From assembly GCA_019638805.1 (NCBI GenBank), contig JAHBTA010000007.1, forward strand, positions 1 to 64,000: 64,000 nt of DNA. The letters are read 5' to 3'. This document shows positions 34,473 to 53,745 of the stretch, one piece after another. Position numbers and translations under genes: made by a program. The DNA is from Microbacteriaceae bacterium (lineage in GTDB: Bacteria > Actinomycetota > Actinomycetes > Actinomycetales > Microbacteriaceae). Under the pieces are notes generated by a model. It saw nothing but the letters and a program-made list of their open reading frames with translations, searched no databases and was not told the DNA's origin. Every line of letters starts with the position of its first letter. The stretch's first letter is position 1.

Positions 34473-34531
34473 CTGCCCCGCAACGATCCTCCGGGCCGTT
34501 TCCATCGGATCGATCGGAAGGATGCACCAGG

Positions 34532-35641: not shown

Positions 35642-35748
35642 ACGGCCAGTTGCCGGCGCAAGCAGGCTGCTCGCCATTGCGATCGTGAGTGGCACTGTCA
35701 GCGCCAACAGGGCGATCCCTGTTCCCCTGGGAGGAGCACACTTGAGGC

Positions 35749-36192: not shown

Positions 36193-36244
36193 GCTGGGCC
36201 CCGGATGGGCTGCCGGCGCGATACGGTGCGGGCTCGGCCCGCGA

Positions 36245-36769
36245 TCAGTCCCTTCCTCGCGCAGGTTCTTTGCTACTGCGGGCGTGAGTAGCGAGCATGA
36301 GCGCCCACAGGGCGATCCCGCTCGTGGTGAAGATGTCGGCAACGTTGAAGGCCGCGAACCAGTCCACCGCGATGAAATCGACGACATGACCTGTCAGTGG
36401 TCCGTCTTCGGCACGACTGAAGCGATCCCAGAGGTTGCCGATTGCCCCACCCGCCGTGACGGCCAAGAAGACGGTGGCGAGGATGTCCTGGTTCCGGATG
36501 GTGCGGACGGCGACCCAGCCCACGAGGGCTAGCACAACGGCGGCCAGCGCGAACGCCAGAGGACTACCGATGTCCGCGCCCATCCCGAACGCCACGCCGG
36601 GGTTGAATGTCAGTTCGAGGCGGACTGTGGGGACGAGCTCGATGACTTGACCGTCCTCGAGCTCGTCCAACGCCCATCGTTTGGTGAGCTGGTCGAGCAC
36701 CAGGGCAGCCCCCAGTGACAAGCCCACCAGGATGATCCGGCCGATCAGTCTTCTGCTCGGAGCCCTCAC
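36245..36769 (-). CDS. lspA: Lipoprotein signal peptidase (signal peptidase II), copy A
   Basis: 174 residues, four hydrophobic helices. The catalytic Asp pair is visible: D131 in HVVDFIAVDWF and D145 in FNVADIF; GNLWDRF and LTFNPGVAFG are also conserved. It removes signal peptides from prolipoproteins. GTG 36769 overlaps the cadD stop. A second, plasmid-borne lspA linked to cadmium genes has a known parallel in Gram-positive cadmium-resistance islands (lspB of Listeria). Confidence 0.95.
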   Translation of the reverse strand: MRAPSRRLIGRIILVGLSLGAALVLDQLTKRWALDELEDGQVIELVPTVRLELTFNPGVAFGMGADIGSPLAFALAAVVLALVGWVAVRTIRNQDILATVFLAVTAGGAIGNLWDRFSRAEDGPLTGHVVDFIAVDWFAAFNVADIFTTSGIALWALMLATHARSSKEPARGRD

Positions 36770-37389
36770 GTGAGGACGCCGATGAGGCGGGGAATGACGC
36801 CCGACTCGATGAGGATGTAGAGACCGAGCCCAATGAAGACGGCCGGGACAAGCCAGTGCTCAATCTTTTCTAGCGCCTCGGTCACGCGTCGGTTGGTCCC
36901 GATCGCACGGGCCAACAGACACCAACCGGCGAGAAGAATCAGGAACACCACGATCGTCACGACGGTGTCCAACACGGGCTGCGTCCGAAACACCGGGGTG
37001 TAGAGCGAGATGTTGTCGGCCCCATTGGCGATGGTGATACCAGCCACCCCGAGGAGCCCACCTGCTCGGATGGCGCTCTCGTCATCGTCATCATCGTGGT
37101 CAGCGTTGCGGCGGCGCACCAGGAAGCGGATAAGCCCGTACACGCCGATGCCGAGCGGCAGCAGCCCGAGGAAGCCAACCCACTCATCCGGCACCAATGT
37201 CAGCCCGAGGGCGGCCACCACGCTGACCATGATCAGCGTGATCAGTCCGAGGTATTGCCCCGCAATGACTTTCCACACGGTGAGAGTGCCGCCGCGTGTG
37301 GTTGCGAGGAAGAGGATCGTCAGTACAACCAGATCGTCGATGTTGGTGCTGACGAAGAGCCCGATGGCAGCAACAACCGCGCCGATCAT
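36766..37389 (-). CDS. cadD: CadD-family cadmium resistance transporter, copy A
   Basis: 207 residues from ATG 37389, which overlaps the cmtR-like stop (ATGA). Five to six membrane helices; the N-terminus FVSTNIDDLVVLTILFLA and the mid segment GITIANGADNISLYTPVF are the CadD signatures. A His/Asp-rich cytosolic loop (RRRNADHDDDDDESA) may bind metal. CadD proteins confer cadmium resistance by efflux or sequestration. A single operon with the regulator and lspA. Confidence 0.92.
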   Translation of the reverse strand: MIGAVVAAIGLFVSTNIDDLVVLTILFLATTRGGTLTVWKVIAGQYLGLITLIMVSVVAALGLTLVPDEWVGFLGLLPLGIGVYGLIRFLVRRRNADHDDDDDESAIRAGGLLGVAGITIANGADNISLYTPVFRTQPVLDTVVTIVVFLILLAGWCLLARAIGTNRRVTEALEKIEHWLVPAVFIGLGLYILIESGVIPRLIGVLT

Positions 37390-37769
37390 GCTTTGAACTT
37401 TCCGGCGAGGGTGTTTGCGCGCACCGCGGTCGCTCGCCGTGCCTGCGACCCGTGCACGGAGCACAAGTCGACCTTGTACCCAGTGGCCTCGAGCAGCACT
37501 TCCGCCGCTTTCAAGAGATCCATCAGCTCTGGTCGTGAAAGCGCATAGAACACCTGCCGGCCGTCAACTCGCCCTTCCAGCAGGCCGCAATCCCGCAGAC
37601 ACGCCACATGCTCCGACACGGTGGATTGAGCCAGACCCAGCGTCTCCACAAGGTCCCTCACCCGAGCCTCTCCGCCCTGCAGCTGGCGGACAATCGCCAA
37701 GCGGGTCGGCTCAGCCAGCGAATGGAACAGCGAAACTGCGGCAAGACTGCTGTCAGTTTGAATCGGCAT
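37386..37769 (-). CDS. cmtR: CmtR-like ArsR-family metal sensor, copy A
   Basis: 127 residues. wHTH: SLAEPTRLAIVRQLQGGEAR, DLVETLGLAQSTVSEHVACL. C57 and C61 (VACLRDCGLL) and C103 (VDLCSVHG) reproduce the three-cysteine Cd/Pb site of mycobacterial CmtR (C57, C61, C102). It should repress the cmtR-cadD-lspA operon until Cd(II) or Pb(II) binds. The operator overlaps a TATAAT promoter right at the start codon. Confidence 0.9.
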   Translation of the reverse strand: MPIQTDSSLAAVSLFHSLAEPTRLAIVRQLQGGEARVRDLVETLGLAQSTVSEHVACLRDCGLLEGRVDGRQVFYALSRPELMDLLKAAEVLLEATGYKVDLCSVHGSQARRATAVRANTLAGKFKA

Positions 37770-37772
37770 CTA

Positions 37773-37785
37773 CCGATTATATCGG
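37773..37785 (-). promoter_or_regulatory. CmtR operator overlapping the -10 box, copy A
   Basis: CCGAT-TAT-ATCGG is a perfect inverted repeat starting 3 bp upstream of the cmtR-like ATG. On the minus strand it contains TATAAT (37777-37782) only 7 bp before the ATG, so the transcript is probably leaderless and repressor binding would block the promoter. Confidence 0.75.
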
Positions 37786-37925
37786 GACATGTCGATCAAA
37801 CTTCAAGCGCAGCGGCCAAGCGATCAGCGCGCGACGGCGACGCGGGTTTCGAGCTCCACATGAGCCACCCAAGGCTGGGGGTTTCCCGTTTCCGGCTGCG
37901 CCATCGTAGCTGCCGTCCACGGCTT

Positions 37926-37953
37926 CGCTCCGGGCTTTCGCGGCATATCCTCC
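37926..37953 (+). repeat. 28-bp GC-rich repeat at the right side of the metal cassette (copy A)
   Basis: Begins CGCTCCGGGCTTTCGCGG and ends TATCCTCC. The same 28 bases occur at 52244-52271 (left edge of copy B) and 55923-55950. The last 8 bases, TATCCTCC, also sit at 34267-34274 directly before the structured IS110 end, so they may be the IS110 target core. Confidence 0.8.
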
Positions 37954-38022
37954 TCCGCTGGCGCTCCGTCCGGTATTCCACGACCCTGCGCTACGCCGCT
38001 CCCGCCCGCTCTCGATGACACC

Positions 38023-38034
38023 GCCGAAAACGGC
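38023..38034 (+). promoter_or_regulatory. Leader-type hairpin inside copy A
   Basis: GCCG-AAAA-CGGC followed by CAAACAAATGAACAGAGATC. Same layout (small hairpin, CAAA, then purine-rich stretch) as the leaders of 56186, 59100 and 60838, but no intact gene follows. Copy B holds the same at 56020-56031. Confidence 0.5.
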
Positions 38035-38140
38035 AAACAAATGAACAGAGATCGATTGACAGCGGGACATAGAAGGGTCGCTGCGCTCAGTCCGGTATTC
38101 CACGGTCCCTACACTTCGCCACTCCCGCTCTCAATCGATC

Positions 38141-38295: not shown

Positions 38296-38465
38296 GTCGT
38301 TTCCTTGACAAGCGGGGAGTCCCGATGCTTAACTCCTTCCGACCCGATCAGAAAATCGATTCGGCAGGCACACGGCGAGCCCGGTGACGAGGTCAGCACG
38401 AGGATGTGAATGTCGATGTTTTCTGTTCGTGTCACTGAGCACGCCACCGCTGTTGTTCGCCTCGG

Positions 38466-38575: not shown

Positions 38576-39895
38576 ATGAATTCACTGCAAAGAACGCCCC
38601 TCAGGGCAGCGGCCGTCCTCGGAATGGCAACCGTGATCCTGCTCGCCGGCTGCGCTGGCGGCGGGGGATCAGGCTCGACGGGCGTGGATGGCGACTACGT
38701 CGCACCCGAGTCCGACATCGAGGCGACGCTCACCGTCGCTACCGCGGGAGGCACCGAGGATGCCGCCCTGTACGACGCGGCGACCGCCCGGTTCAACGAG
38801 CGGTTCCCCAACGTGACGGTCGAGAACAACTTTACGAACAGCGCGAGCTGGACCGACTACATCAACAAACTGCTGTCGCAGATAGCCGCCGGCGACTCAC
38901 CGGACGTCATCACCATGGCGACTGAGGGAATTGAGTTCGGCTTCAGCAAGGACTTGTTCCTCCCGCTCGACAACTACATCGATCAAGACCAGGAAGCCCA
39001 GGACCTGCTCGCCGACATCGCGGACCCGCTCGTCGAGAGCTTTCAGAAAGACGGTGAGACCTACCTCCTGCCCAACAACTGGAACGCGATGGTGATGTTC
39101 TACAACACCAGGATGTTCGAGGAGGCGGGAATCGAGCGGCCGAGCGATAACTGGACGATTGACGAGTTCCTGGAGATCGCCCAGAAACTGACCACCGGTT
39201 CGGGCGACGACAAGGTGTTCGGGTTCGGCATCCCGTCCTTCTCGTGGGCACTTCAGCCGTGGTTGTATTCGCACGGCGCCTCGTGGGCGTCCGATGACCT
39301 GACAGAGCCGACGCTCGACTCGCCCGAGATGGTCGAGGCGATGCAGTTCCTGCAGGACCTCGTGCTCGAGTACGAGGTGTCGCCCCAGATTGCGGGGTCC
39401 GATCCTTACCAGCTGTTCCCCGCGGAGAAGGTCGCGATGACCGCTGGTGGCAGCTTTATGATGGTGCCCCTCCAGGATGCAGGAATGGACGACTACGACC
39501 TGCTGCCCTGGCCGAAGGATGTCTCGCAGACCAGCGTGTTCGGCACCTCCGGCGTATCCATCTACAAGGATTCCCAGAACAAGGACCTGGCTTGGGAGTA
39601 CCTCAAGGAGCTCGCCGGGCAGGAGTCCCAGATGGACTACGCGGTAGCGAGGACGAACACTCCGACGACCCGCACGGCGGCGATGTCCCCGGAGTTCCTG
39701 GGAACCATTCCGCAACACGCTTCGTTGTTCTACGACACCATCGAAATGGCGAAGTCGATCGATGCGCCGACCTTCTACCCGACTCTCGAGCCGGCCTTCC
39801 AGCGGGCGCTGGAGGAGATAATGGGTGGCGCAGATCCGTACACGGCGCTCCACAAGGCGAACGAAGAAGTAAAGGCGTCCATCAGTAATGACTGA
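38576..39895 (+). CDS. ABC sugar transporter solute-binding lipoprotein
   Basis: 439 residues from ATG 38576 (AAAGGAG upstream). Signal ending VILLAGCAGGGG (lipobox LAGC). Type 1 extracellular sugar-binding protein features: LTVATAGGTEDAALYDAATA, AAGDSPDVITMATEGIEFGF, YLLPNNWNAMVMFYNTRMFE, and the C-terminal YPTLEPAFQRALEEIMGGAD. It captures a carbohydrate-like ligand outside the cell and delivers it to the two permeases that follow in an overlapping operon. The ligand is unknown. Confidence 0.93.
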   Translation: MNSLQRTPLRAAAVLGMATVILLAGCAGGGGSGSTGVDGDYVAPESDIEATLTVATAGGTEDAALYDAATARFNERFPNVTVENNFTNSASWTDYINKLLSQIAAGDSPDVITMATEGIEFGFSKDLFLPLDNYIDQDQEAQDLLADIADPLVESFQKDGETYLLPNNWNAMVMFYNTRMFEEAGIERPSDNWTIDEFLEIAQKLTTGSGDDKVFGFGIPSFSWALQPWLYSHGASWASDDLTEPTLDSPEMVEAMQFLQDLVLEYEVSPQIAGSDPYQLFPAEKVAMTAGGSFMMVPLQDAGMDDYDLLPWPKDVSQTSVFGTSGVSIYKDSQNKDLAWEYLKELAGQESQMDYAVARTNTPTTRTAAMSPEFLGTIPQHASLFYDTIEMAKSIDAPTFYPTLEPAFQRALEEIMGGADPYTALHKANEEVKASISND

Positions 39896-40838
39896 TCGAC
39901 TGTCCACCGGTGCATGGTGGACGACCCGGCGGGCGGCGCTGAAAAGGCCCGCCCGCCGGGGGGCCCTCCGTGGGGACACGCTCGCTGGATACCTGTTCGT
40001 CGGCCCATCGGTCCTCGGGTTCCTCATATTCGTTCTCGGGCCCCTGCTCGCGGTGGCGTTCTTCAGCTTCACGAAGTACGACGTCATTAGCCCTCCCGAA
40101 TTCGTGGGCTTCGCGAACTATGCGCGAATGTTCACGGACACGCGCATGGGGACGGTGTGGGTGAACACGCTGGTCTACGTGGCCGCGGCGGTGGTGCTGA
40201 TCAACGGGATCGCGCTGCTTCTCGCCGTGCTCATCAGCCAGAAGCTCCCGACATGGGTGACGTACGTCTTTCGCTCGGTGTACTTCTTCCCATCTCTCAT
40301 CGCGTTGGTGTACGTGTCCCTCATCTTCCAGGGCCTTTTCCAGAAGGACACCGGGATCGTCAACTACTACATCCAGGCACTCGGGGGAGAGCCCATCGGG
40401 TGGCTGTCCGATGGTGACCAGGCTCGCATGAGCGTCATCATCGTGGACGTGTGGCGCAACGTGGGCTTCGCGATGCTGATTTTCGTGGCTGCCATCCAGG
40501 ACGTCCCCAAGGATGTCGCCGACGCCGCCCAGATCGACGGGGCTGGTCCGTTCACGGTCTTCCGCAAGATAACCGTTCCGTTGATCAGCCAAGCGATCTT
40601 CTTCAACGTGACTATTACGGTGATCGGTGCCTTCCAGATCTACGAGTCGATCATCGTGCTCACCGGCGGAGGTCCGGGGGACTCGACCCGCAGCGTCGTG
40701 ATGTACATCGCCGAGAAGGCGTTCTCCTCGTTCCAGATGGGCTACGCCTCCGCGATCTCAGTGGTGCTCTTCCTCATCATCCTCACCATCACGCTCATCC
40801 AATTCCGAATCAGAAAGTCGTGGGTGCACTATGAGTGA
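39888..40838 (+). CDS. ABC sugar transporter permease (MalF/UgpA-like)
   Basis: 316 residues, start overlapping the previous gene by 8 bp. Six membrane helices; N-terminal AGYLFVGPSVLGFLIFVLGP and the EAA-type loop IQDVPKDVADAAQIDGAGPF, which docks the ATPase. Pairs with the next gene to form the transmembrane channel. Confidence 0.93.
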   Translation: MTDRLSTGAWWTTRRAALKRPARRGALRGDTLAGYLFVGPSVLGFLIFVLGPLLAVAFFSFTKYDVISPPEFVGFANYARMFTDTRMGTVWVNTLVYVAAAVVLINGIALLLAVLISQKLPTWVTYVFRSVYFFPSLIALVYVSLIFQGLFQKDTGIVNYYIQALGGEPIGWLSDGDQARMSVIIVDVWRNVGFAMLIFVAAIQDVPKDVADAAQIDGAGPFTVFRKITVPLISQAIFFNVTITVIGAFQIYESIIVLTGGGPGDSTRSVVMYIAEKAFSSFQMGYASAISVVLFLIILTITLIQFRIRKSWVHYE

Positions 40839-41718
40839 GTCTGTGATCCGATCCGCTCGGATGCCGTCGACCACCTCGACTCGCAAGCGTCGGCGCTGGA
40901 GCGTCGCCAAGATACTCTCCCTCGTGATCCTCGTCATCGGGGCGCTGGGCATGATGGCGCCCTTCGTCTACATGCTGGTCACTTCCCTCAAATCGTCCGC
41001 CAACGCCTACGACCTGCCGCCGACCTGGATCCCGACCGAGTTCGAGTGGGGCAACTACCAGCGCGCCCTCACCGACCAAGTGCCACTGCTGCTGAACATG
41101 CTCAACAGCGCCATCATCGCCATCGCCTCCACGCTCGGCCTACTCATCACGGCGCCAATGGCCGGCTACGCCTTCGCGCGCCTCAAATTCCGCGGCAGCA
41201 GTGTGATGTTCATCACACTGCTGGCATCGCTGATGGTGCCCATCCAAGTTACGATCATCCCGCTCTGGCTGATCATGAGAAACCTCGGGCTCATCAACAG
41301 CCCGCTCAGTTTGATCCTCCCGGCCGTGACCGGCGCGTTCGGGGTGTTCCTGATGCGCCAGTTCTTTCTGACGGTGCCGAACGAAATCCTCGAAGCCGCC
41401 AAGATCGACGGAGCGAACGCGTGGAAGACGTACAGCCTGATCGCTCTGCCTCTCGTGAAGCACGGGCTCAGCACCCTGGGCGTCATCACGTTCCTCGCGA
41501 GCTGGAACGCTTACTTCGCTCCATCCATCTTCCTCAACAGCATTCAATCAGCTACCCTTCCGATGGGCCTCGTCCTAATGCTCGGACCCTACGGAACCGG
41601 TCAGATTAACGTGATCATGGCCGCGACCGCGTTCGCCATCGCGCCAGCCTTCCTGGTCTACCTGATTGCGCAGAGGTGGATCATCACGAGCCTCACGCAG
41701 TCCGCGGTGAAGGGCTGA
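40831..41718 (+). CDS. ABC sugar transporter permease (MalG/UgpE-like)
   Basis: 295 residues, overlapping the previous gene by 8 bp. MAPFVYMLVTSLKSSANAYD near the N-terminus and the EAA loop FLTVPNEILEAAKIDGANAW followed by PLVKHGLSTLGVITFLASWN are diagnostic. No ATPase gene occurs in the cluster, so the transporter must borrow one (MsmK/MsiK-type) encoded elsewhere. Confidence 0.93.
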   Translation: MSESVIRSARMPSTTSTRKRRRWSVAKILSLVILVIGALGMMAPFVYMLVTSLKSSANAYDLPPTWIPTEFEWGNYQRALTDQVPLLLNMLNSAIIAIASTLGLLITAPMAGYAFARLKFRGSSVMFITLLASLMVPIQVTIIPLWLIMRNLGLINSPLSLILPAVTGAFGVFLMRQFFLTVPNEILEAAKIDGANAWKTYSLIALPLVKHGLSTLGVITFLASWNAYFAPSIFLNSIQSATLPMGLVLMLGPYGTGQINVIMAATAFAIAPAFLVYLIAQRWIITSLTQSAVKG

Positions 41719-41724
41719 CGCGCC

Positions 41725-42177
41725 ATGAAGCTGGCCATCGGTTGCGATAACGCCGCGTTCGCACTTCGCGACGTGCTCGCCGAGTACATTCGTGAGTCCC
41801 ACCCCGAGATCGAACTCGTCGACTTCGGGCTGCAAGACGACTCCGGGAAGGACTACCCCGACGTGGCGATCACGGTGGCGGAGGCGGTCGCCTCGGGCCG
41901 GGTGGATCGTGCGCTTCTGCTATGCGGGACCGGCCTCGGCGTAGCCATCGCCGCGAACAAGGTGGCGGGAGTCCGCGCCGCGACCTGTCACGACGTGTAC
42001 TCGGCGCAACGGGCCCAGCTGAGCAACGACGCGCAGATCATCACGATGGGGTCTAGGGTGATCGGGCCCGAACTCGCGAAGGTCGTCCTCGACGCCTACC
42101 TGTCGTCGTCCTTCGCGGGGGGCAAATCGTCCGGCAAGGTCGACAAGATCTCGGCATACGAGCAGACGCACCGTTAG
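41725..42177 (+). CDS. RpiB/LacAB-family sugar-phosphate isomerase
   Basis: 150 residues, 6 bp after the permease. MKLAIGCDNAAFALRDVLAE, DYPDVAITVAEAVASGRVDR and LLLCGTGLGVAIAANKVAGV with AATCHDVYSAQRAQLSNDAQ are the RpiB signatures (catalytic Cys in CGTG). The family covers ribose-5-P, allose-6-P, galactose-6-P and D-erythrulose-4-P isomerases. With a TIM-like gene next door, a tetrose-phosphate substrate is attractive but unproven. Confidence 0.9.
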   Translation: MKLAIGCDNAAFALRDVLAEYIRESHPEIELVDFGLQDDSGKDYPDVAITVAEAVASGRVDRALLLCGTGLGVAIAANKVAGVRAATCHDVYSAQRAQLSNDAQIITMGSRVIGPELAKVVLDAYLSSSFAGGKSSGKVDKISAYEQTHR

Positions 42178-42223
42178 TCCGGGTGCCGGACATCGGCTTC
42201 GATCATGACGCGGGACTGGGACG

Positions 42224-42991
42224 CTACCGCAAGAATCGATCACACGCCTCGTCGAGAACTTGGCCAAACGCCGTCGCCTGATGGGCGAATCGACCGAGGA
42301 AGAGTCCATCCAATTCAGGTAGCGAACCGAGTAGGCCAGGACCGGCGCTGCCTCCGTAGATGATTCTCACGTCGGCATCCGGATAGTCGCGGCGCAGTTC
42401 GGCGCGCAGCTCTTGCACCACATGGTTCACATACGAGGGACGGGCGGGGACCTGGGCCCCGATAGCCCAGCTCGGCTCGTACGCGAGCGTGAGACGCGCG
42501 CCAGGATTCCCCTCGACGGCGGCTCTGACTTGTTTCCGGCAGAATCGCGCGGCCCGCCGGGGCGTCGTCGCTCGAGGCTCACCGATGCAGAGGAGAACCT
42601 GGAGTCCAGCAGCCATCGCCGCCTCATACTTTCGGTGAACTACGTGACTAGTCTCCCCGAACCACGTGCGTCGCTCGTAGTGCCCGACCTCTGCGATCGT
42701 CACCCCCATGTCCGCCACCATCGTCGCGGGAGTCTCACCGGTGAGTGCACCGCTTCCCCAACTCACGTCTTGGGCACCGACTCTGACTCCGGTGCCGTCG
42801 AGGATCGCGACGGCACGCTCGATCAGGGGCAGAGATGGGATCACGAACGGCACGATGTCGTACTCGGCGAGGTGAGGGCGCGACAGGACGACCCCCCGGA
42901 TGGCAACCAACCAGTCGACCGTTTCGCGATAAGACAGGTATGCCTTGGTGCTAGCGCCGACCAGCTGGCTCCGAACGTCGGGACTAGCCAT
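42224..42991 (-). CDS. Triosephosphate-isomerase-family isomerase (EryH/LerI-like)
   Basis: 255 residues. TIM-barrel with Lys in VGASTKAYLSY, His in EVGHYERRTWFGE (GHSER in true TIM, so Ser is replaced by Tyr), Glu in LAYEPSWAIGA and the phosphate loop IIYGGSAGPGLL. The altered loop suggests a substrate other than glyceraldehyde-3-P, as in L-erythrulose-1-P isomerases of tetritol pathways. It is transcribed away from rpiB-like gene and toward it convergently. Substrate assignment is inference. Confidence 0.85.
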   Translation of the reverse strand: MASPDVRSQLVGASTKAYLSYRETVDWLVAIRGVVLSRPHLAEYDIVPFVIPSLPLIERAVAILDGTGVRVGAQDVSWGSGALTGETPATMVADMGVTIAEVGHYERRTWFGETSHVVHRKYEAAMAAGLQVLLCIGEPRATTPRRAARFCRKQVRAAVEGNPGARLTLAYEPSWAIGAQVPARPSYVNHVVQELRAELRRDYPDADVRIIYGGSAGPGLLGSLPELDGLFLGRFAHQATAFGQVLDEACDRFLR

Positions 42992-43065
42992 CCACGAGCA
43001 TCCTTTGCTTGTCCGTCATGCAGCCAGCCTAGTTCCCTAAGACAAGTCGACTACCGAGCTCGTGG

Positions 43066-43372
43066 GTGCGGCGGTGCGAGTCGCAGGGCATACTGACGGA
43101 GTCGTGGTCGCCACTCGGTCGCGGCCGTGTCTTCGGTGTAGCCGCTCTGGAGCAGCTGGCTTCGAAGCACGAGAAGAGCGTCGCCCAAGTCGTACTGCGC
43201 TGGCATGTGCAACTCGGGTGCGAGGTCATCCCCGAAGTCCGTCACCCCCTCCCGGCTGGCCGAGAACCTCGACGGTTTCGACGTCGAGCTCGACGCCGAC
43301 GACCTCGACGTCATCGCGTCGCTCGAGAACGGCGTCCGCACCGGCGACGATCCCGACACCTACAACGGCTGA
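43066..43372 (+). pseudogene. Aldo/keto reductase C-terminal remnant, frameshifted
   Basis: GILTESWSPLGRG then ASKHEKSVAQVVLRWHVQLG and CEVIPEV match the C-terminal third of AKR enzymes. At about 43231 the frame shifts by one base: the expected KSVTPSRLAENLDGF, DVELDADDLDVIASLENG, TGDDPDTYNG continues in another frame to the stop at 43372. The N-terminal two thirds, including the catalytic Tyr, are missing. A non-functional remnant. Confidence 0.8.
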
Positions 43373-43596
43373 CGAAAAAGAGGCCGAGCCCGAACCGATC
43401 TGTTCCGCGGAAGTACGTGGGCGATGGATAGGATGATGATCGTCTCCCTCGGGAGCAGGGTGCCGCCGGCGATCCGGGATAGGGCTGTGCGGGCGTAATG
43501 GTCCTGATGGGCCCGCAAACCTATGCTGCGTCAGTCGTCGTTGGTATGCTTGGTCAGGCGCATGTTGTCGCTTCTGACCTGTGAGACGAGCGAGGG

Positions 43597-44631
43597 ATGA
43601 CCGCACGGAACCGGCCGAGCATCAAGGAGATCGCTGCACGAGCCGGCGTTGCGCCCTCGACCGTTTCCAATGCGCTCAATGATGTTCCCGAGGCCCGGGT
43701 AGCCGAGAAGACCCGGTACCGTATCAAGCAGGTCGCGGACGAGATGGGTTACGTGCCTAACAGCTTCGCCCGGGCGCTGCGCACCAACCGCTCGCACACG
43801 CTGGCCCTGCTCAGCGATCTGGTGGCGACTACCCCCTACGCGGGAGAGCTGGTTCGCGGGGCTCATGAAGCGGCAATCTCGCGCGGGTTCCTTCTCATGA
43901 TCGTGACCACGGGCAACGACCCCGATGTGCAGGCCTTGGGCATCCGAGCTCTCCGACAGCGCCAGATGGATGGGGTGCTGTATGCAGCGATGAGCCACCG
44001 CGTCGTGACATTGCCGGACAGTCTTTCCTCGGGCCCCCTCGTGGTAGTGAACGCCAGGTCGACCGACTCCCAGCAGGACTGCGTCTTTCCCGACGAATTC
44101 GATGGCGGATATTCGGCCACCAAGGTGATGCTCGACGCCGGTCATCGGCGGATCGGTTTGGTTCTGACATCAGAGTTCATTCCCGCGAGGTACGGTCGCC
44201 TCGACGGCTACCGCGCCGCGCTCGCGGAAGCCGGTGTCGAGTTTCATCCCGAGTTGGTTGCGGAGGGCCCCTCCGATAGCGAGGGGGGCTTCGATGCTGC
44301 AATCCAGCTGCTGAGCAGGCACGATCGGCCCACGGGACTGTTCTGTTTCAACGACCGCATGGCCATGGGTGCCTTCCGTGCCGCCAGGCGACTGGGCATG
44401 GCAATTCCCACTGACGTCTCGATCGTCGGGTTCGACAACCTCGAGATCATCGCCGGGGCGCTCGACCCGCCTCTCACCACGATCGCCCTTCCGTACTACG
44501 AGATGGGGGCCTGGGGAGTGAACAGGGTCATCGACAAGATCATGGGCGTTGGCCACGAGGACTCCGACCCCCACGTCGCGTTGCGAGGAACCTTGGTGGA
44601 ACGAAGCTCGGTGGCGCGACCCCAGGGGTAG
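43597..44631 (+). CDS. LacI-family transcriptional regulator
   Basis: 344 residues from ATG 43597. The N-terminal LacI HTH reads PSIKEIAARAGVAPSTVSNA, LNDVPEARVAEKTRYRIKQV with the hinge helix YVPNSFARALRT. The C-terminal sugar-binding fold includes TLALLSDLVATTPYAGELV, FCFNDRMAMGAFRAARRLG and IVGFDNLEIIAGALDPPLTT. It probably controls both arms of the catabolic cluster; candidate operators are at 38466 and 50215. Confidence 0.93.
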   Translation: MTARNRPSIKEIAARAGVAPSTVSNALNDVPEARVAEKTRYRIKQVADEMGYVPNSFARALRTNRSHTLALLSDLVATTPYAGELVRGAHEAAISRGFLLMIVTTGNDPDVQALGIRALRQRQMDGVLYAAMSHRVVTLPDSLSSGPLVVVNARSTDSQQDCVFPDEFDGGYSATKVMLDAGHRRIGLVLTSEFIPARYGRLDGYRAALAEAGVEFHPELVAEGPSDSEGGFDAAIQLLSRHDRPTGLFCFNDRMAMGAFRAARRLGMAIPTDVSIVGFDNLEIIAGALDPPLTTIALPYYEMGAWGVNRVIDKIMGVGHEDSDPHVALRGTLVERSSVARPQG

Positions 44632-44637
44632 CCGTCG

Positions 44638-45864
44638 CTAGTTCACCAGACCGAGGAAGGCCTCCATGACGGCGTCCGCGAACCGGGCGTCGTTGATGTG
44701 CGCCGGGATGCGGGTGACCGGGATGTCGAGGCGCAGCCGCGACTCCAGTTGCTCGATGAACACGTGGTCGGCCGCCTGGTCCGCGAATGGTCCGCCGGGC
44801 GTGGCGTAGCTGTCGAAGCCCTCCGTCGGGATGACGACGTGGATCCGGCCCACAGCCCTGTTGAGCCGGGCTGCGAGCTCGTTCGCAACCGTCTTCAGCT
44901 CGTCGACGGTGAGCCGCACCGCAGTCACCTGGGGATTGTGCTCGACGAGGGGACGGTCGGCAGTACGGAAGCGCTCGGGAACGGTGTCGAGCGCTCCGAA
45001 GTTGAGCACTTCGATGGCGCCGGGCACGATCACCTGGGGTACCCCCTTCTCTGTGGCGCCTAGAAGCCTTCGGTGCCCGGCGTTGAAGACTCCGCCGTGT
45101 ACGTCATCCGTGATCTCCTTGATCGTGAAGTCGATGACCCCGGTGATGACGCCTTGCTCGACGAGCTCTTCGAGGGCTCGACCGCCCGACCCAACCGCGT
45201 GGAAGACGATCGCATCGAAACCGGCTTTTTCGAGCCCCTCGACGATACGCAGCGCGCCGACAGTCGTGACTCCCAGCATGGTCACGCCGATCGCCTGTCT
45301 GTCGGCGCGGAACTCTTCGGACGGTTCGGCCAGCACCATCCCCGCCATTGCGGCGGCCGCGTTGGTGAGGATCGGAATCGAGATGCGGTTGAGGCCCGCG
45401 ATGTCGGTGACGGAATGCACCATGCAGACATCGCTTGAGCCCACATAGGGGCCGATATCGCCTGATGCCATCGTGGAGACCATTACTTTGGGAACCCCGA
45501 AGGGCAGCGTTCGCATCACGGCGGTGATGACCGCCGTGCCGCCTGAGCCGCCCAGGCCCAGAATGCCGTCGCAGCGACCCTCCGCGCGAAGTCGAGCCAC
45601 GATCCGGGCGGCGCCTCGCTGCATCGTGGCGAGGGCGGCGGCCCGGGCGTCAGCGCCTTCATGAGCGTGCTGCAGCCGAGCGAGTTCTTCTCCGGCGGCG
45701 GCCGCCACCTCCTCTGCGCTGACGTCGGCGGACCAAGAATGGTGGCCGAGAACGCCGACATCGACGACCACTACATCCGTGCCCGCCCTGATCAGGCGCT
45801 CCGCTACGAACGCGTACTCACGCCCCTTGGTGTCGAGCGTGCCGAGCAGCACCACGGTCGGCAT
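44638..45864 (-). CDS. Tm-1-like ATP-binding domain protein (UPF0261)
   Basis: 408 residues. VVLLGTLDTKGREYAFVAER, GILGLGGSGGTAVITAVMRT, KVMVSTMASGDIGPYVGSSD and GVTMLGVTTVGALRIVEGL are typical of UPF0261, named after the ATP-binding N-terminal domain of tomato Tm-1. The neighbour at 45868 matches the TIM-barrel half of Tm-1, so the two domains are separate genes here. Enzyme activity is unknown; a nucleotide-dependent step on the imported compound is possible. Confidence 0.88.
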   Translation of the reverse strand: MPTVVLLGTLDTKGREYAFVAERLIRAGTDVVVVDVGVLGHHSWSADVSAEEVAAAAGEELARLQHAHEGADARAAALATMQRGAARIVARLRAEGRCDGILGLGGSGGTAVITAVMRTLPFGVPKVMVSTMASGDIGPYVGSSDVCMVHSVTDIAGLNRISIPILTNAAAAMAGMVLAEPSEEFRADRQAIGVTMLGVTTVGALRIVEGLEKAGFDAIVFHAVGSGGRALEELVEQGVITGVIDFTIKEITDDVHGGVFNAGHRRLLGATEKGVPQVIVPGAIEVLNFGALDTVPERFRTADRPLVEHNPQVTAVRLTVDELKTVANELAARLNRAVGRIHVVIPTEGFDSYATPGGPFADQAADHVFIEQLESRLRLDIPVTRIPAHINDARFADAVMEAFLGLVN

Positions 45865-45867
45865 GGC

Positions 45868-46701
45868 TCACCTCTTGAGCGACAGGGAATGGAACGCCTG
45901 GACGGTCGCGCCGATCGCCTCCTCCACCGGAAGCCGTTCGATGCTCGACGCTCCCAGGAAGCCGTCTACATCGACCCGGTCGAACACGGCCTGTACGCTC
46001 GTGGCGTCATCGAAGGGGCCGCCGTGCGCGACGACCCAGACGTCCGGGCGCACCGCCCGGGCAGCGGCCGTCATGGCCTCGACTTTCGAGCATGCCTCGT
46101 CGAGAGCGACTGCGTGCTGCGCGCCGATGAAGCCCCCGACCGTAAGGCCGACATGAGCACCGATGACGTCAGCTCCCGCCTTCGTCATGGCCGCGGCCTC
46201 TTCCGGCGTGAAGGCATAGGCGACGGTGAAGATGTCGCGCCGGTTGCACTCGCCGATGAGGTCGATCTCCTTCGGGTAGCCGAGGTCGGTGGCATCGATG
46301 TGCTGGCGGAAGGTGCCGTCGTAGATGCCAGCGGTCGGAACGTTTGTGATGCCCGAGTACCCGAGTTCCATGAGTTGAGAGATGAGGGTGCCGATGTCGC
46401 GGTAGGGGTCACCTGCGCCGATCCCCGCGAGCACGGGTGTTGCCTTGACGACCGGAAGGATTTTCTGCGCGAGGTCGATGGTGATTCCGTTCGCGTCGCC
46501 GTAGGCGAGGTACCCCGAGAGCGAGCCGTGACCGTTCATCCGGAATGGGCCGGTGTTGTACGCCATCAGCGCATCGATCCCGGCTCGGTCGGCCGCCTTC
46601 GCCACGAGTCCGATGCCCGCGCCCCCTAGCAGTAGGGGCTCTCCCTTCCGCCGCCGTTCTGTGAAACGGCGTCGGATCTCTTTCCTGTCCATGCTTGGCA
46701 T
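45868..46701 (-). CDS. Phosphoenolpyruvate-hydrolase-like TIM-barrel protein
   Basis: 277 residues. GEPLLLGGAGIGLVAKAADR, ALMAYNTGPFRMNGHGSLSG, PVLAGIGAGDPYRDIGTLIS and GITNVPTAGIYDGTFRQHID match the PEP-hydrolase-like/TIM-barrel signal transduction family (PF09370-like). Genes of this family pair with UPF0261 in bacteria and fungi, and both are fused in plant Tm-1. Stop is 3 bp from the next start, so the two are co-expressed and probably form a complex. Confidence 0.88.
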   Translation of the reverse strand: MPSMDRKEIRRRFTERRRKGEPLLLGGAGIGLVAKAADRAGIDALMAYNTGPFRMNGHGSLSGYLAYGDANGITIDLAQKILPVVKATPVLAGIGAGDPYRDIGTLISQLMELGYSGITNVPTAGIYDGTFRQHIDATDLGYPKEIDLIGECNRRDIFTVAYAFTPEEAAAMTKAGADVIGAHVGLTVGGFIGAQHAVALDEACSKVEAMTAAARAVRPDVWVVAHGGPFDDATSVQAVFDRVDVDGFLGASSIERLPVEEAIGATVQAFHSLSLKR

Positions 46702-46715
46702 GCGATCTCCCGGTG

Positions 46716-47888
46716 CTAGGCGGACAACTGCTGGGACTGCCGGAATGCAGTTGCGACTCGCTCAGGGATCTGCACATCGACCTCTTCACGCTCGTTGAGG
46801 CTGACGGCCAAGGCTTCCATCGTGATTGTGTTGATCACCGTTTCGGCGAGGCTGACCCGGGGCTGTGCTGAGCCCTGAACGACGTTCGCCACATTCAGGA
46901 GCTGGTCCTTGAAAGCGTTGGACGCGGGCACGGCGAAGGTGTCCGAGATCGTCTGGAACGCTCGCGACTGGTCGCGGTAGTCATGGGCGATCGAACTGCG
47001 GACCGTGATCGTGGTCGCGTCGTAGATGTTCCACGCTGCCGGCAGGTGCAGGGTGCCGTATTGCCCTGAGATCTGGATCTCCTGGTTGGTGTCGGACACC
47101 TCACTCGACTCGAGCAGACCGACCACTTCATTGTCGTAGTCGATCAGGCCCATGATCTTGTCGCTCGTGCCGTACTCGTTTTTCGCGCGGCCGAAGGCCG
47201 CAACGCGTGTCGGAACTCCACCGGCGAAGTGGGTAGACGCGTTCACCGCATACGTACCGATGTCATACAGGGCGCCGCCGCCCTGGTCGGCCCGGTACCG
47301 CCAGGGGCGATTGGGATCGTTGGGGTCGACCTTCGTTCCCACCATGCTCTTGTTGAAGTAGGTGAAGCTCGCTCGTACGTGGTCGATCTGCCCGAGCCTG
47401 CCGGATGCGATGATCTGCTCGATCTTCGCAATCGCCGGGTGGTGGCGGTACATGAACGCCTCGATGACCGTGGTGCCGGACGCCGCCGCCAGATCCCACA
47501 CCCTGAGGGCTTGCTCGCCGGTGAGTACCAGAGGCTTCTCGCACAACACCAATCCGACACCGCCCGCGATGCACTGCTCGATCAGCTCGGGGTGAGTGCT
47601 GGGCCAGGTCGAGATGATCACACCGTCCAGTTCCTCAGCCTGGATCATCTCGCCCACGCTGCTGTAGGAGTTGGCCCAGCCGTAGGTCTCTGCAGCTGCT
47701 GCGGCCGCCGCAGGGTTCGCGTCCGAGGCGGCGACGATCGTGAACTGGTCGGGTACCGCCTGGGCGGCCAGCCCGTGCACGCCGGCGATGAAGCCGGCAC
47801 CGATAACGCCGAAGCGCGCCGGCAACGTGCTGCTCGTGGTCAGGTTCTTGTCGTTCCTCTTCTCATCGAGGACAGGTGGTTGGATCAT
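46716..47888 (-). CDS. Gfo/Idh/MocA-family oxidoreductase
   Basis: 390 residues. N-terminal Rossmann fold with RFGVIGAGFIAGVHGLAAQA, the family EKP motif in LVLCEKPLVLTGEQA, and the C-terminal half with GGGALYDIGTYAVNASTHF. NAD(P)-dependent oxidation or reduction of a sugar, inositol or sugar acid is expected. It could supply the dehydrogenase step missing elsewhere in the cluster. A ~20-residue N-terminal extension precedes the Rossmann fold, so a later start is possible. Confidence 0.92.
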   Translation of the reverse strand: MIQPPVLDEKRNDKNLTTSSTLPARFGVIGAGFIAGVHGLAAQAVPDQFTIVAASDANPAAAAAAAETYGWANSYSSVGEMIQAEELDGVIISTWPSTHPELIEQCIAGGVGLVLCEKPLVLTGEQALRVWDLAAASGTTVIEAFMYRHHPAIAKIEQIIASGRLGQIDHVRASFTYFNKSMVGTKVDPNDPNRPWRYRADQGGGALYDIGTYAVNASTHFAGGVPTRVAAFGRAKNEYGTSDKIMGLIDYDNEVVGLLESSEVSDTNQEIQISGQYGTLHLPAAWNIYDATTITVRSSIAHDYRDQSRAFQTISDTFAVPASNAFKDQLLNVANVVQGSAQPRVSLAETVINTITMEALAVSLNEREEVDVQIPERVATAFRQSQQLSA

Positions 47889-48664
47889 CGTCGGGCCTCC
47901 AAAACCTTCTGAATGTTCTTGAACAGGATGTTGTCCTTGTCTTCTTCGGAGATGTCGGCGTCGAGTACCGAGTTCAACACCTCGCCGAGCTCGTAGAACG
48001 GAACGTCGCTGCCGAACACCACACGTTCGCTACCCACCGCTCGGACCAGTTCTTCGGTGAGACGGGGGTCGCCCTGGTAGGCGACGTCCATGTACACATG
48101 GGGCAGGTCTTTGACGATCTGGATGCACTCCGCCTTCTGCTGAGGACTCATGAACCCATGACCGATGAAGTAGGTCACATTGGTGTACTTGCTCGTCACC
48201 AGGCGCACGTCGGATGCCGATTCGCCGGAACCGGGATCGGGGGAACTGTGCATGAGGCATAGCGCACGGCGGTCATCGAGCACCTCGAAGATAGGGTCGA
48301 CCCAGAGGGGGATATCCAGCCGGTACCCCTCCATCTGCGGATGCACGGCAAGGCCGGCGAGGCCTAGCTCATCCATCACCCGCACCGTCTCCTCGACTGC
48401 CAGCATCTCGTGGCGGGGCTCGATCACTCCGAGCCCGTCCGGAAAGCGGTCCGGATGGTCGCGCACGGCACTCGCGACGATGTCGTTAAGGCGTCGTGTG
48501 TCGCGAATGCCGTCGGATTGCACGTCACCTGCGGCCCGGGACAGCAGCGCCTGAGTCACTCCTGCCCTGTCCATGCGCTCCAGCATCTCGGCCACTGTCT
48601 GGCCGATATTGTTCGCCACGGTCTTTCCTACGTGCGCATGCACGTCGATGCTCTGACGCGTCAT
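47885..48664 (-). CDS. Amidohydrolase-2-like metal-dependent hydrolase
   Basis: 259 residues from ATG 48664, chosen because GGGAGAGG lies about 7 nt upstream; ATG 48682 is an alternative. DVHAHVG supplies the HxH metal ligands, LAVHPQMEGYRLDIP and TYFIGHGFMS the later His residues, and VVFGSDVPFYEL the final Asp. The family includes lactonases and decarboxylases (ACMSD-like). It overlaps the Gfo/Idh/MocA gene by 4 bp, so a dehydrogenase plus lactonase pair is plausible. Confidence 0.85.
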   Translation of the reverse strand: MTRQSIDVHAHVGKTVANNIGQTVAEMLERMDRAGVTQALLSRAAGDVQSDGIRDTRRLNDIVASAVRDHPDRFPDGLGVIEPRHEMLAVEETVRVMDELGLAGLAVHPQMEGYRLDIPLWVDPIFEVLDDRRALCLMHSSPDPGSGESASDVRLVTSKYTNVTYFIGHGFMSPQQKAECIQIVKDLPHVYMDVAYQGDPRLTEELVRAVGSERVVFGSDVPFYELGEVLNSVLDADISEEDKDNILFKNIQKVLEARR

Positions 48665-48713
48665 CGCGTCCACCTCTCCCATGTCCGGCTATATGTCCTG
48701 GTCGCGATCGGGG

Positions 48714-49136
48714 TTATGCGTGTTCGTCTACGGATGTCCGCATCACTAGTCCCTCATCCGCGGCATGTATGGCATGCGCGTTCTCGGGCGTCCCTCCCTC
48801 GGGCCCACCGGGGCTGTACATCACCAAGAGGTGAAGTGGCGCCCAGCCGGTGTTGTGGGAGTCGTGGAAGACTCCCACGGGGATGTGCAGGGCATCGCCC
48901 GGCCCGATGGGGATTCGGTTGCCTTCGCCCACAGTGAAGGAGCCGCGGCCGGAGATCACGTACACGACCTCGTCGCTGTCCTCATGGTTGTGCCACTCGT
49001 GGGATTGTCCGGGCAGCACGATCACTTCGCCAAGGGACATCGCCGAGTTGTGATCGGCGGAGGTTATCAACCACTTGGCGACTCCCCACGACAGCTCGGT
49101 GGATACGACATCGGCGGCGTTGACGGAATGCTTCAT
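48714..49136 (-). CDS. Single-domain cupin protein
   Basis: 140 residues from ATG 49136 (GGAAGGACG upstream). Cupin motif 1: PGQSHEWHNHEDSDEVVYVI, GRG; motif 2: PVGVFHDSHNTG. His and Glu metal ligands are kept (HxH, E, H). Such proteins may be isomerases, lyases or sensors for sugar-like molecules. Its place in the operon argues for a metabolic role. Confidence 0.88.
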   Translation of the reverse strand: MKHSVNAADVVSTELSWGVAKWLITSADHNSAMSLGEVIVLPGQSHEWHNHEDSDEVVYVISGRGSFTVGEGNRIPIGPGDALHIPVGVFHDSHNTGWAPLHLLVMYSPGGPEGGTPENAHAIHAADEGLVMRTSVDEHA

Positions 49137-49153
49137 GTTTCGTTCGTCCTTCC

Positions 49154-49825
49154 TCAAGATCTTTCCGACGGCACCGTCGGACGGCTTGCGCCTGGGGCCT
49201 CGTCGTCGAGCCCGACGAACTTCCACCCGGTCTTCCTCGTGAAACCTGCGTACTCGCGATCCAGCACGAGCATCAGCGATACCATGGAGTCGATGAGCCG
49301 CGCGTTGTGGAGTGGCCCGCAATCGAGAGCACGGTGGTCGAGATCTTCGGCGAGGCCACGGACGATATCCTTGGCCCTGGCGTCGTCGGCGGCGATCTTG
49401 ACGTCGGCACGCTGGCCACTGGCCACGCCCGGTGTGTTGATCGTGGCAACGAAGTTGTCCTTGAACGCGGCAACCACGCCCTCGGTCGTGCCGAGCGCGT
49501 CGCTCGTGTACTCGACCCCTGCCTTCTCGTTGTGGGCAAGGTTCTCGAACGGGTTGGTGATGTCGATGATGATCCTGCCCGTCAGCGACTCCCTGTGCTC
49601 ATCGACGAAGGGCACCACGGCGGGATAGGGGATTGCGATGACGACCACGTCCGCGCCTTCGATCGCAGAGCGGTAGTCGGTCACGGTCGCGACCGGCAAG
49701 CCACTTCCCTCCGGGGCCGACCCCGGGGTGCGCGAGCCATACGTGACGTCGTGCCCCGCCCGAATCCATCCCGTGCCGAGTTCGCGGGCCATGCCGCCCG
49801 TGCCGATGATTCCGATCGCCGTCAC
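49154..49825 (-). CDS. NADPH-dependent F420 reductase-like oxidoreductase
   Basis: 223 residues. TAIGIIGTGGMARELGTGWI is the Rossmann motif, VTYGSRTPG fits NADP binding, and VVVIAIPYPAVVPFVDE with IIIDITNPFENL is typical of the F420 oxidoreductase NADP-binding family. The C-terminal part (GPLHNARLIDSMVSLMLVLD) is also family-like. Overlaps the downstream-transcribed ABM gene's stop (ATGA). Could reduce F420 or a pathway intermediate. Confidence 0.85.
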   Translation of the reverse strand: MTAIGIIGTGGMARELGTGWIRAGHDVTYGSRTPGSAPEGSGLPVATVTDYRSAIEGADVVVIAIPYPAVVPFVDEHRESLTGRIIIDITNPFENLAHNEKAGVEYTSDALGTTEGVVAAFKDNFVATINTPGVASGQRADVKIAADDARAKDIVRGLAEDLDHRALDCGPLHNARLIDSMVSLMLVLDREYAGFTRKTGWKFVGLDDEAPGASRPTVPSERS

Positions 49826-50124
49826 GCCGTCGCCCCAGCCGGTTCCTGGAAGTGATCAACGGTCGGGTCCTCCACGAAGTGCGGCCACAGGAGTTCCCTG
49901 AACCGGGTGAAGTCGTCGGAGGTCACGAAACCCTGCACGTGGTCTTCGATTGCCCGCCAGCGGACCAGGAGGAGATAGTCGCCGCCCTCCACCTCCCTTG
50001 CCAGTTCCGACCACAGATGCCCGTCGGCCGCTTGGAGAAGAGAGTGCGCCTCGGCAAATGCTGCCTCGAACTCCCCCTCTGCTTCTCGCCTTACTCGCAG
50101 ACGCGCTACTTCCAACACGCTCAA
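49822..50124 (-). CDS. Antibiotic biosynthesis monooxygenase (ABM) family protein
   Basis: 100 residues; start TTG 50124 with GGGAGG 6 nt upstream. VLEVARLRVRREAEGEFEAA, FAEAHSLLQAADGHLWSELA and YLLLVRWRAIEDHVQGFVTS show the ferredoxin-like ABM fold (dimeric beta-alpha barrel). First gene of the long minus-strand operon, preceded by the 17-bp palindrome at 50215. Confidence 0.85.
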   Translation of the reverse strand: MSVLEVARLRVRREAEGEFEAAFAEAHSLLQAADGHLWSELAREVEGGDYLLLVRWRAIEDHVQGFVTSDDFTRFRELLWPHFVEDPTVDHFQEPAGATA

Positions 50125-50214
50125 TTGCAGCCTCCCTTGGCTGGACGCGATGACCCGTCGACGGGGCCGGGCGCTAGCACTTGACCGACTGCGTCACCGG
50201 GCTCGATGATGAGA

Positions 50215-50231
50215 AAATGCAAAATGCATTT
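50215..50231 (-). promoter_or_regulatory. 17-bp palindrome in the promoter of the minus-strand catabolic operon
   Basis: AAATGCA-AAA-TGCATTT, 90 bp upstream of the TTG start at 50124, in an A/T-rich pocket of otherwise GC-rich DNA. Likely operator for the operon; the LacI regulator is the obvious candidate, though the core differs from the site at 38466. Confidence 0.65.
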
Positions 50232-50367
50232 CGCACAACATACATACCCGGCTCATCCGGCGTCAAGCCGACATGGTGATCTGCGGGTTCGGGGAGCCCG
50301 CAGCCGCACCCCGACGTCGGTCGGACGCGGTAGAATTGGTGCAAGCCGATCAGATGAAGGAGTGAGC

Positions 50368-50568
50368 ATGTCGACCACGATTGATACTAGGATTGCTCCC
50401 GCTGAGCGCGCCCGTCGCGTCGCCCTCGAGCAGGCTGAGCACAGCGGCGAGATGGAGGGCCTGCACATCACGGCGGCCACTCGTGCTGATGCCGAAGAGT
50501 ACGCGGCCGGTCGCATCGACATTGACGAGCTCGTGGCGCGCGGTCGAGCACGCTACAACCTTGGCTGA
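50368..50568 (+). CDS. VbhA-like antitoxin of the Fic toxin
   Basis: 66 residues from ATG 50368 (GAAGGAG upstream, TAGAAT -10 candidate at about 50331). HSGEMEGL contains the inhibitory (S/T)xxxE(G/N) motif: S26, E30, G31. In VbhA-type antitoxins this glutamate blocks ATP binding in Fic. The C-terminal helix (AEEYAAGRIDIDELVARGRA) is also VbhA-like. Stop overlaps the Fic start. Confidence 0.85.
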   Translation: MSTTIDTRIAPAERARRVALEQAEHSGEMEGLHITAATRADAEEYAAGRIDIDELVARGRARYNLG

Positions 50569-51187
50569 GGTCGTCGACCCTTACCTCGACCCCGACACGG
50601 GGTTGCTGCGCAACCTGGTTGGTGCTCGCACGCAGGACGCGCTCGACCTTGTGGAGGGTGACCTGACCTACATTCGTGCCGCCGAGCTGCAGGCACGCCC
50701 CATCCGGCCCACCGGAGATCTGGACGAGTTCCGCGCGATCCATCGGCAGTTGTTCCAGGACATCTACCCGTGGGCGGGCGAAGTGCGCACAGTCGACATC
50801 CGGAAGAACGTCGCGGGTGCCGAACACTTCCTATCCGTGGGCGCTATCGACCGCGGCTCGATGTTCGCCGCGGACGAGCTGCTTGCGGACAACATGTTGC
50901 GCGGGATGAACCGTGAGCAGTTCGTAGACCGGCTCAGCCACCACTACGGCGGGTGGAATTACGTTCATCCCTTCCGCGAAGGCAATGGCCGAACTCAGCG
51001 CGTGTTCTGGAATCGAGTCGCCGCCGACGTCGGCTGGCAGCTGGACTGGCGCCCCGTGCAGGGAGCCGTGAACGATGCGGCCTGTCGCGCCGCTTCGGAG
51101 CGCGGTGACTTCGGTCCTCTCCGGGCGATGTTCGGCCAGGTCGTCCTGCCTGCCGGTGCTGAGGTAAGATCCCTCGACCGCGCCTGA
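50561..51187 (+). CDS. Fic-domain toxin (AMP transferase)
   Basis: 208 residues from TTG 50561, overlapping the antitoxin by 8 bp. The Fic motif HPFREGNGR starts at H136 and is complete (HPFx[D/E]GNGRxxR). The flap region DIYPWAGEVRTVDIRKN is intact. Expected to adenylylate a target protein unless held by the antitoxin. Forms a VbhA/VbhT-type class I Fic module, here probably a plasmid maintenance system. Confidence 0.92.
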   Translation: MAEVVDPYLDPDTGLLRNLVGARTQDALDLVEGDLTYIRAAELQARPIRPTGDLDEFRAIHRQLFQDIYPWAGEVRTVDIRKNVAGAEHFLSVGAIDRGSMFAADELLADNMLRGMNREQFVDRLSHHYGGWNYVHPFREGNGRTQRVFWNRVAADVGWQLDWRPVQGAVNDAACRAASERGDFGPLRAMFGQVVLPAGAEVRSLDRA

Positions 51188-52263: not shown

Positions 52264-52271
52264 TATCCTCC

Positions 52272-52469
52272 CTCTCTAATGAAAGGTGGTTGGCCCGGTG
52301 CCGACTGACAGGCTGGGAATCGGACTGCCTGGCGTGGCTCTTCCTCCCTCTGTCCCGTTCGCGGTGACTTGGTAGCGACTCGTCCGCCAGGCAGTTCGAC
52401 CATGGCCCGTCCCGCTGCGATGGCTTGATAGAAGGTTGTCCGACCTGCGGGTCGTGACTCATTAGAGAG
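52272..52469 (+). ncRNA. Structured IS110 non-coding end, candidate bridge RNA (copy B)
   Basis: Same sequence as 34275-34472. Closing arms at 52272-52282 and 52459-52469, inner stem arms at 52324-52334 and 52385-52395. Confidence 0.55.
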
Positions 52470-52528
52470 CTGCCCCGCAACGATCCTCCGGGCCGTTTCC
52501 ATCGGATCGATCGGAAGGATGCACCAGG

Positions 52529-53638: not shown

Positions 53639-53745
53639 ACGGCCAGTTGCCGGCGCAAGCAGGCTGCTCGCCATTGCGATCGTGAGTGGCACTGTCAGCG
53701 CCAACAGGGCGATCCCTGTTCCCCTGGGAGGAGCACACTTGAGGC

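Follow-up and report, generated by a model that had tools for sequence, protein, structure and literature searches.

Analysis of a 64-kb stretch of a Microbacteriaceae genome (hereafter, the window) identified a 13-gene catabolic cluster at positions 38576–50124, which represents a real, duplicated, and probably co-regulated variant among tetrulose-phosphate pathways. The window is part of the 88-kb contig C8 of a 3.14 Mb genome assembled in ten contigs. The new element is a prediction about two products of the cluster, a UPF0261 (Tm-1-like) protein and a PEP_hydrolase-like barrel (PEPh). These proteins, often together with a cupin, may form a new ATP-dependent small-molecule kinase or keto-acid-processing complex, which would replace OiaK plus OiaX, FGGY, or DhaK in a tetrulose-phosphate pathway and would give the Tm-1 family a carbohydrate substrate. 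This prediction is put forward tentatively. The broader proposal, that the module is LacI-regulated, probably horizontally acquired, and serves the catabolism of a small sugar or sugar acid by the steps outlined below, appears to us about evenly poised between being right and wrong.

All gene families named for this segment in the initial annotation were confirmed by Pfam with strong E-values (4.8e-48 for LacAB_rpiB, 2.8e-46 for TIM, 2.1e-95 for PEP_hydrolase, and 3.5e-62 and 8.8e-76 for the N and C domains of UPF0261). An importer–RpiB operon reads rightward from 38576 to 42177, the TIM-like isomerase gene (42224–42991) reads leftward, and the gene of a LacI-family regulator (43597–44631; 54% protein identity to its C1 counterpart, see below) reads rightward. 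The remaining genes form a leftward run from 50124 to 44638, in the order ABM-domain protein, NADP enzyme, cupin, amidohydrolase, Gfo, PEPh, and UPF0261.

A syntenic 13-gene twin of the cluster is present in the same genome at ~377–388 kb of the 733-kb contig C1, which was taken as the chromosome. Because the syntenic set recurs there, the segment is not a chance grouping of genes. In the C1 copy, genes coding for RpiB, UPF0261, PEPh, TIM, Gfo, amidohydrolase, cupin, NADP enzyme, and ABM protein follow one another in a single run at 377–384 kb, and the importer and LacI genes extend to ~388 kb. Ten of the protein pairs are 54–74% identical, while identity falls to 43% for ABM, 43% for RpiB, and 38% for TIM. 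A third UPF0261 gene, at 352–361 kb of C1, is accompanied by two PEPh genes, a Gfo gene, a gene for a xylose-isomerase-like barrel, and an importer. The wider C1 region at 345–385 kb (L005–L006) contains two UPF0261/PEPh sets, GH32-type sequences, a glycerate kinase, an FAD oxidoreductase, and a PanE-like protein. The order cupin–amidohydrolase–Gfo–PEPh–UPF0261 is also found, with 62–77% identity, on a contig of a Microbacteriaceae metagenome-assembled genome (L007). No Gfo orthologue was detected at E ≤ 1e-60 in any other of the 396 genomes sampled from the order.

Relatives of the two isomerases were classed by gene neighbourhood, and maximum-likelihood trees of TIM and RpiB were built. Relatives occur in oiaX/DUF1537 (OiaX/OiaK) apionate clusters of Rhizobium, in fused-DhaK clusters of Arthrobacter, Klebsiella, Pantoea, and Erwinia (a PGDH_C enzyme, known from apionate pathways, accompanies two of these), and in FGGY erythritol-type clusters of Roseibium, Klebsiella, and a genome of the same genus (G041). 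In Thalassospira, TIM and RpiB relatives are found with transketolase and aldolase, and no kinase lies within the stretch read. The window TIM (encoded at 42224–42991, minus strand) is sister to the TIM of the Arthrobacter StoSoilB13 DhaK cluster (support 95/96, with long branches), the C1 TIM adjoins the oiaX/erythritol clade (support 81/76), and a 100/100 split separates the two; they group with TIMs of tetrose and apionate clusters and stand apart from the housekeeping TIM of the genome. Both RpiB proteins (that of the window is encoded at 41725–42177, plus strand, and has the CGTG active-site motif) group with RpiBs of tetrose clusters, and a 100/99 split sets them apart from the housekeeping RpiB of this genome. 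The GHYER motif is present in the window TIM, and its segments GASTK, GHYER, and YEPSWAIG align with the catalytic Lys, His, and Glu of TIM. Serine replaces asparagine just before the catalytic lysine in 14 of 14 tetrose-cluster and study TIMs and in none of seven housekeeping TIMs, counts that are uncorrected for kinship; this signature was derived in the present analysis and is not a published criterion. Against the NCBIfam model NF051858, named for rhizobial DerI, the window RpiB scored 163 bits, below the 240-bit cut-off.

LerI and DerI are known to convert L-erythrulose-1-P to D-erythrulose-4-P and then to erythrose-4-P (PMC10733421). By phylogeny and context, assignment of the window TIM to the L-erythrulose-1-P isomerase type (LerI/EryH) and of the window RpiB to the D-erythrulose-4-P isomerase type (DerI/EryI) is well supported, and so the trees and the gene clusters of relatives bear out the erythrulose-phosphate isomerases proposed in the initial annotation. 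The pathway very probably ends with the conversion of tetrulose phosphate to erythrose 4-phosphate. Both copies kept or re-acquired the same end-step using isomerases of different lineages, which ties this step to the rest of the module.

Nearly all related isomerase clusters hold a kinase of a known family: OiaK (DUF1537), fused DhaK, or FGGY. No known-family kinase is present in the core of the window copy or the C1 copy, and inspection of open reading frames and Pfam matches revealed no kinase within the segment 38576–50124. In genome-wide searches, each made for a single family, the DUF1537 kinase (PF07005, OiaK) and the RuBisCO-like protein (PF00016, OiaX) were absent. The original claim that no kinase is present stands for the cluster; a split DhaK/DhaL on contig C5, four FGGY kinases, one PfkB, and a glycerate kinase are encoded elsewhere in the genome. 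Tetrulose could be phosphorylated in trans by one of these enzymes (the split DhaK/DhaL, an FGGY kinase, or the PfkB and glycerate kinase whose genes adjoin the C1 copy), while the UPF0261–PEPh pair would use ATP for a different reaction of a keto intermediate, e.g., C–C cleavage, (de)carboxylation, or activation. The membership of PEPh among PEP/pyruvate-type barrels close to KPHMT and methylisocitrate lyase, and the occurrence of the pair in non-sugar contexts, are consistent with such a division of labour. However, the DhaK is of the split two-gene type, is encoded in a cluster without tetrose genes, and is 42–46% identical to fused kinases of tetrose clusters, and the window copy of the module moved without any kinase. 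We consider phosphorylation in trans rather unlikely, if a serious contender.

By position, the place of the kinase is occupied by UPF0261 and PEPh, often with a homologous cupin. The window UPF0261 (44638–45864, minus strand) contains both Pfam domains and is encoded next to the PEP_hydrolase gene (45868–46701, minus strand). The family carries an ATP-binding name in NCBI annotation, and its solved homologues are tomato Tm-1 (3WRY) and Saro_1862 of Novosphingobium aromaticivorans with bound acetovanillone (9MPY). Acetovanillone catabolism in the latter organism starts with the kinase MarK (PMC13101465), which need not be the same protein as Saro_1862. The acetovanillone kinase AcvAB was considered as a UPF0261 pair and rejected, AcvAB/HpeHI being PEP-synthase-like dikinases. 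UPF0261 and TBST/PEPh proteins have been reported to co-occur and co-evolve (PMC5028733). The window PEPh matches PF09370 and has a 2P10-like fold: its structure model aligned to 2P10 with a Z of 31.6, followed by KPHMT (18.2) and then, at ~17, by phosphate-binding barrels, among them IGPS, TrpA, PdxS, and archaeal TIM; the fold is a common one. No solved kinase was near UPF0261 in the VIA-align list, a result that is not evidence against kinase activity.

From the missing kinase, the place in the operon, and the ligand-bound homologue we infer that UPF0261 supplies the ATP-dependent step. Like OiaK and OiaX, UPF0261 would phosphorylate a keto-sugar acid and PEPh would work on what this reaction yields. 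The same role for the Tm-1-type pair had been suggested in the initial annotation; it was a reasonable inference, which the acetovanillone-bound homologue strengthens, and it keeps that rank. The homologue can also be read in another way, with RpiB and TIM as bystanders and the UPF0261 operon degrading an unrelated compound, e.g., an aromatic ketone like acetovanillone. Indeed, in the window copy RpiB is part of the importer operon and TIM stands alone, both apart from the UPF0261 operon. In the C1 copy, however, RpiB and TIM lie inside that operon (RpiB–UPF0261–PEPh–TIM–Gfo), and both copies carry the two isomerases although their lineages differ, which makes the bystander explanation very improbable.

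The cupin (single-domain, Cupin_2; 48714–49136, minus strand) may be the third member of the UPF0261–PEPh module, because homologous cupins (32–45% identity) recur in archaeal, actinobacterial, and rhizobial loci that encode UPF0261 or PEPh (L086, L092, L109, L145, L146, and L147). Other arrangements of these families were also observed. Locus L095 (G245:C2:47000–66900) combines UPF0261 and three proteins of the PEP_hydrolase family with a Ser-type TIM, an amidohydrolase, and a RuBisCO-like protein closest to MtnW, and is possibly another UPF0261-linked tetrulose-phosphate route; identification of its RuBisCO-like protein as OiaX was rejected, as it scored better as MtnW-like and far under the OiaX cut-off. 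On a plasmid of Shinella sp. PSBB067 (L144, 6983–8937), the gene directly after UPF0261 codes for a HAD-family hydrolase, hpa genes of aromatic metabolism lie alongside, and no PEP_hydrolase is annotated nearby; this arrangement would fit a phosphorylate-then-dephosphorylate scheme. Double-length (~600 amino acids) PEP_hydrolase-family proteins are encoded beside a normal pair in alphaproteobacteria (L103, 10584–12413; L104, 9292–11142; L110, 4764–6590).

In the proposed pathway, the substrate would most simply be a linear or branched C5 aldose or aldonate, with D-apiose as one possibility. It would be imported by the ATP-binding cassette (ABC) system, which comprises a sugar-type SBP_bac_1 solute-binding protein (38576–39895) and two BPD_transp_1 permeases (39888–40838 and 40831–41718), all encoded on the plus strand and 56%, 69%, and 68% identical to the C1 copy, respectively; no ABC ATPase gene was found in the segment among open reading frames and Pfam matches. 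Oxidation by the Gfo/Idh/MocA dehydrogenase (GFO_IDH_MocA; 46716–47888, minus strand; 65% identical to the C1 copy) would be followed by lactone hydrolysis by the Amidohydro_2 enzyme, a putative lactonase or decarboxylase (47885–48682, minus strand; 70% identical to the C1 copy) to which ACMSD-type decarboxylases are weak matches. A second oxidation, by the F420/NADP-type oxidoreductase (F420_oxidored, FNO/STEAP-like by PDB match; 49154–49825, minus strand), would produce a keto acid. ATP-dependent phosphorylation, possibly with decarboxylation, by UPF0261, PEPh, and the cupin would yield tetrulose phosphate, and the two isomerases would convert it to D-erythrose 4-phosphate for the pentose-phosphate pathway. 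The set also includes a gene for an ABM-domain protein (49822–50124, minus strand). The isomerase steps rest on phylogeny and context, while the earlier enzyme steps are proposed from family chemistry. Conversion of a C5 aldose to the lactone and pentonate, followed by C3 oxidation and decarboxylation, would give erythrulose. Overall, the initial interpretation is partly supported, the "complete pathway" and the substrate being its presumptive parts.

A reading that fits in part, and that had been hinted at by the mention of apiose-type sugars in the initial annotation, is the D-apiose/D-apionate pathway. Here, Gfo would be apiose dehydrogenase, the amidohydrolase a lactonase, and the NADP enzyme the oxidoisomerase, with UPF0261 standing in for OiaK and PEPh for OiaX. 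The order of chemistry and the presence of Gfo, TIM, and RpiB match the oiaX clusters of R. etli and R. anhuiense, and the C1 TIM is nearest to TIMs of oiaX clusters at the support given above. Yet OiaX-like proteins and the DUF1537 kinase are missing from the genome, the importer is of another type, and Gfo is merely 22% identical to that of the R. etli cluster, so that its identification as an apiose-cluster Gfo was rejected. The NADP enzyme is unmatched in the R. etli cluster, is FNO/STEAP-like, and lacks the PGDH_C domain; its assignment as ApnO found no support in Pfam, in the PDB match, or in the comparison with R. etli. The ApnO-type PGDH_C domain (PF16896) had no match in the genome, but control genomes were equally silent. 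Because the enzymes that define an apionate pathway did not turn up, the cluster was not filed as one, and we regard this identity as improbable.

Common LacI control of the two copies was assessed with the LacI-type palindrome consensus TGCCAAATCGATTTGGCA, drawn by eye from intergenic regions. In the C1 copy, three sites with 2–3 mismatches to it lie between the divergent operons and one site with 4 mismatches lies upstream of the LacI gene. Only two sites in the window have ≤5 mismatches: an operator-like palindrome at 50218–50235 (4 mismatches), upstream of the ABM-to-UPF0261 operon, and one at 38349–38366 (5 mismatches), upstream of the importer–RpiB operon. The chance expectation per 64 kb, by simulation, is 0.03 sites at ≤4 mismatches and 0.93 at ≤5. 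The window TIM gene has no palindrome site of its own. A strict operator pattern recovered the 50218 site alone, in a count not clearly above chance. Given this result and the derivation of the consensus from the very sites on which it was tested, the palindromes are supportive rather than proof of a single regulon, and the operons of both copies are probably co-regulated.

This circularity and the weakness of the 38349 site weigh against the proposed module, as do the kinases encoded elsewhere in the genome and several further points. No characterised enzyme is a close relative of Gfo, the amidohydrolase, or the NADP enzyme. In the literature searched, we found no report of a UPF0261 activity and no biochemical role for the UPF0261–PEPh pair. 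Finally, many other loci combine UPF0261/PEPh with amino-acid or branched-chain-type importers and contain no tetrose isomerases; the reaction of the pair may therefore be more general.

The catabolic segment is bracketed by two perfect direct repeats of 3,831 bp (34267–38097 and 52264–56094, 100% identical throughout), each with an IS110-type transposase and a cadmium-type operon (LspA, CadD, and ArsR). Its G+C content is 63.6%, compared with 71.8% for the adjoining backbone. The differing G+C content and the flanking transposase-bearing repeats indicate that the segment is probably acquired DNA and the module horizontally transferred. Recombination between the repeats could excise the segment; misassembly at the repeats is a possible alternative to a true structure. 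The presence of ParB, SSB, and resolvase genes (by Pfam) suggests that contig C8 is a plasmid. No overlap of contig ends indicative of circularity was seen, and a megablast search for the cluster in plasmids gave no match. Also observed were a frameshifted C-terminal remnant of an aldo/keto reductase-like gene at ~43080–43372, between the TIM and LacI genes; a VbhA-type antitoxin gene followed by a Fic gene at 50206–51187, between the catabolic cluster and the right-hand repeat; and a DNA methylase gene adjoining a ResIII/DEAD helicase gene at 8184–12877, which resembles a type III restriction system.

UPF0261/Tm-1 proteins and their barrel partner are known from bacteria and archaea as well as from fungi and land plants. 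If the prediction is true, the pair would constitute a new kinase family and open a new small-sugar route into the pentose-phosphate pathway, and would hint at the cellular role of the Tm-1 family in plants and fungi. The cluster offers a concrete test, with tetrulose phosphate as the expected product and no other kinase of its own.

Among known systems, the OiaK–OiaX–LerI–DerI apionate clusters (R. etli CFN42 p42f and R. anhuiense) likewise combine TIM and RpiB with a sugar importer and Gfo, and their TIM is 45% identical to the C1 TIM. They differ in having the RuBisCO-like OiaX, the DUF1537 kinase, and the PGDH_C oxidoisomerase, none of which was found in the study genome, and in lacking UPF0261, PEPh, the cupin, the amidohydrolase, and the ABM protein. 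The fused-DhaK tetritol/erythrulose clusters (Arthrobacter, Klebsiella, Pantoea, and Erwinia plasmids) contain the closest relatives of the window TIM (39–47%) and RpiB (45–55%), but carry a fused DhaK-family kinase where the study cluster has none. The FGGY erythritol clusters (Roseibium, Klebsiella p1, and G041) also share TIM and RpiB, the G041 RpiB being 66% identical to the C1 RpiB, whereas their FGGY kinase and GlpD-like dehydrogenase are both absent from the study cluster. A plasmid stretch of Rhizobium sp. N324 resembles the cluster in its CUT1 importer, Gfo, cupin, UPF0261, and PEPh; it is devoid of RpiB, TIM, amidohydrolase, and ABM genes, and its Gfo is not detectably similar at E < 1e-4. 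In plant Tm-1, the UPF0261 and TBST parts are fused, while here the two families (homologues of 3WRY, 9MPY, and 2P10) are encoded by adjacent but separate genes. These share their operon with genes for sugar enzymes and, in the C1 twin, also with those for the tetrulose-phosphate isomerases.

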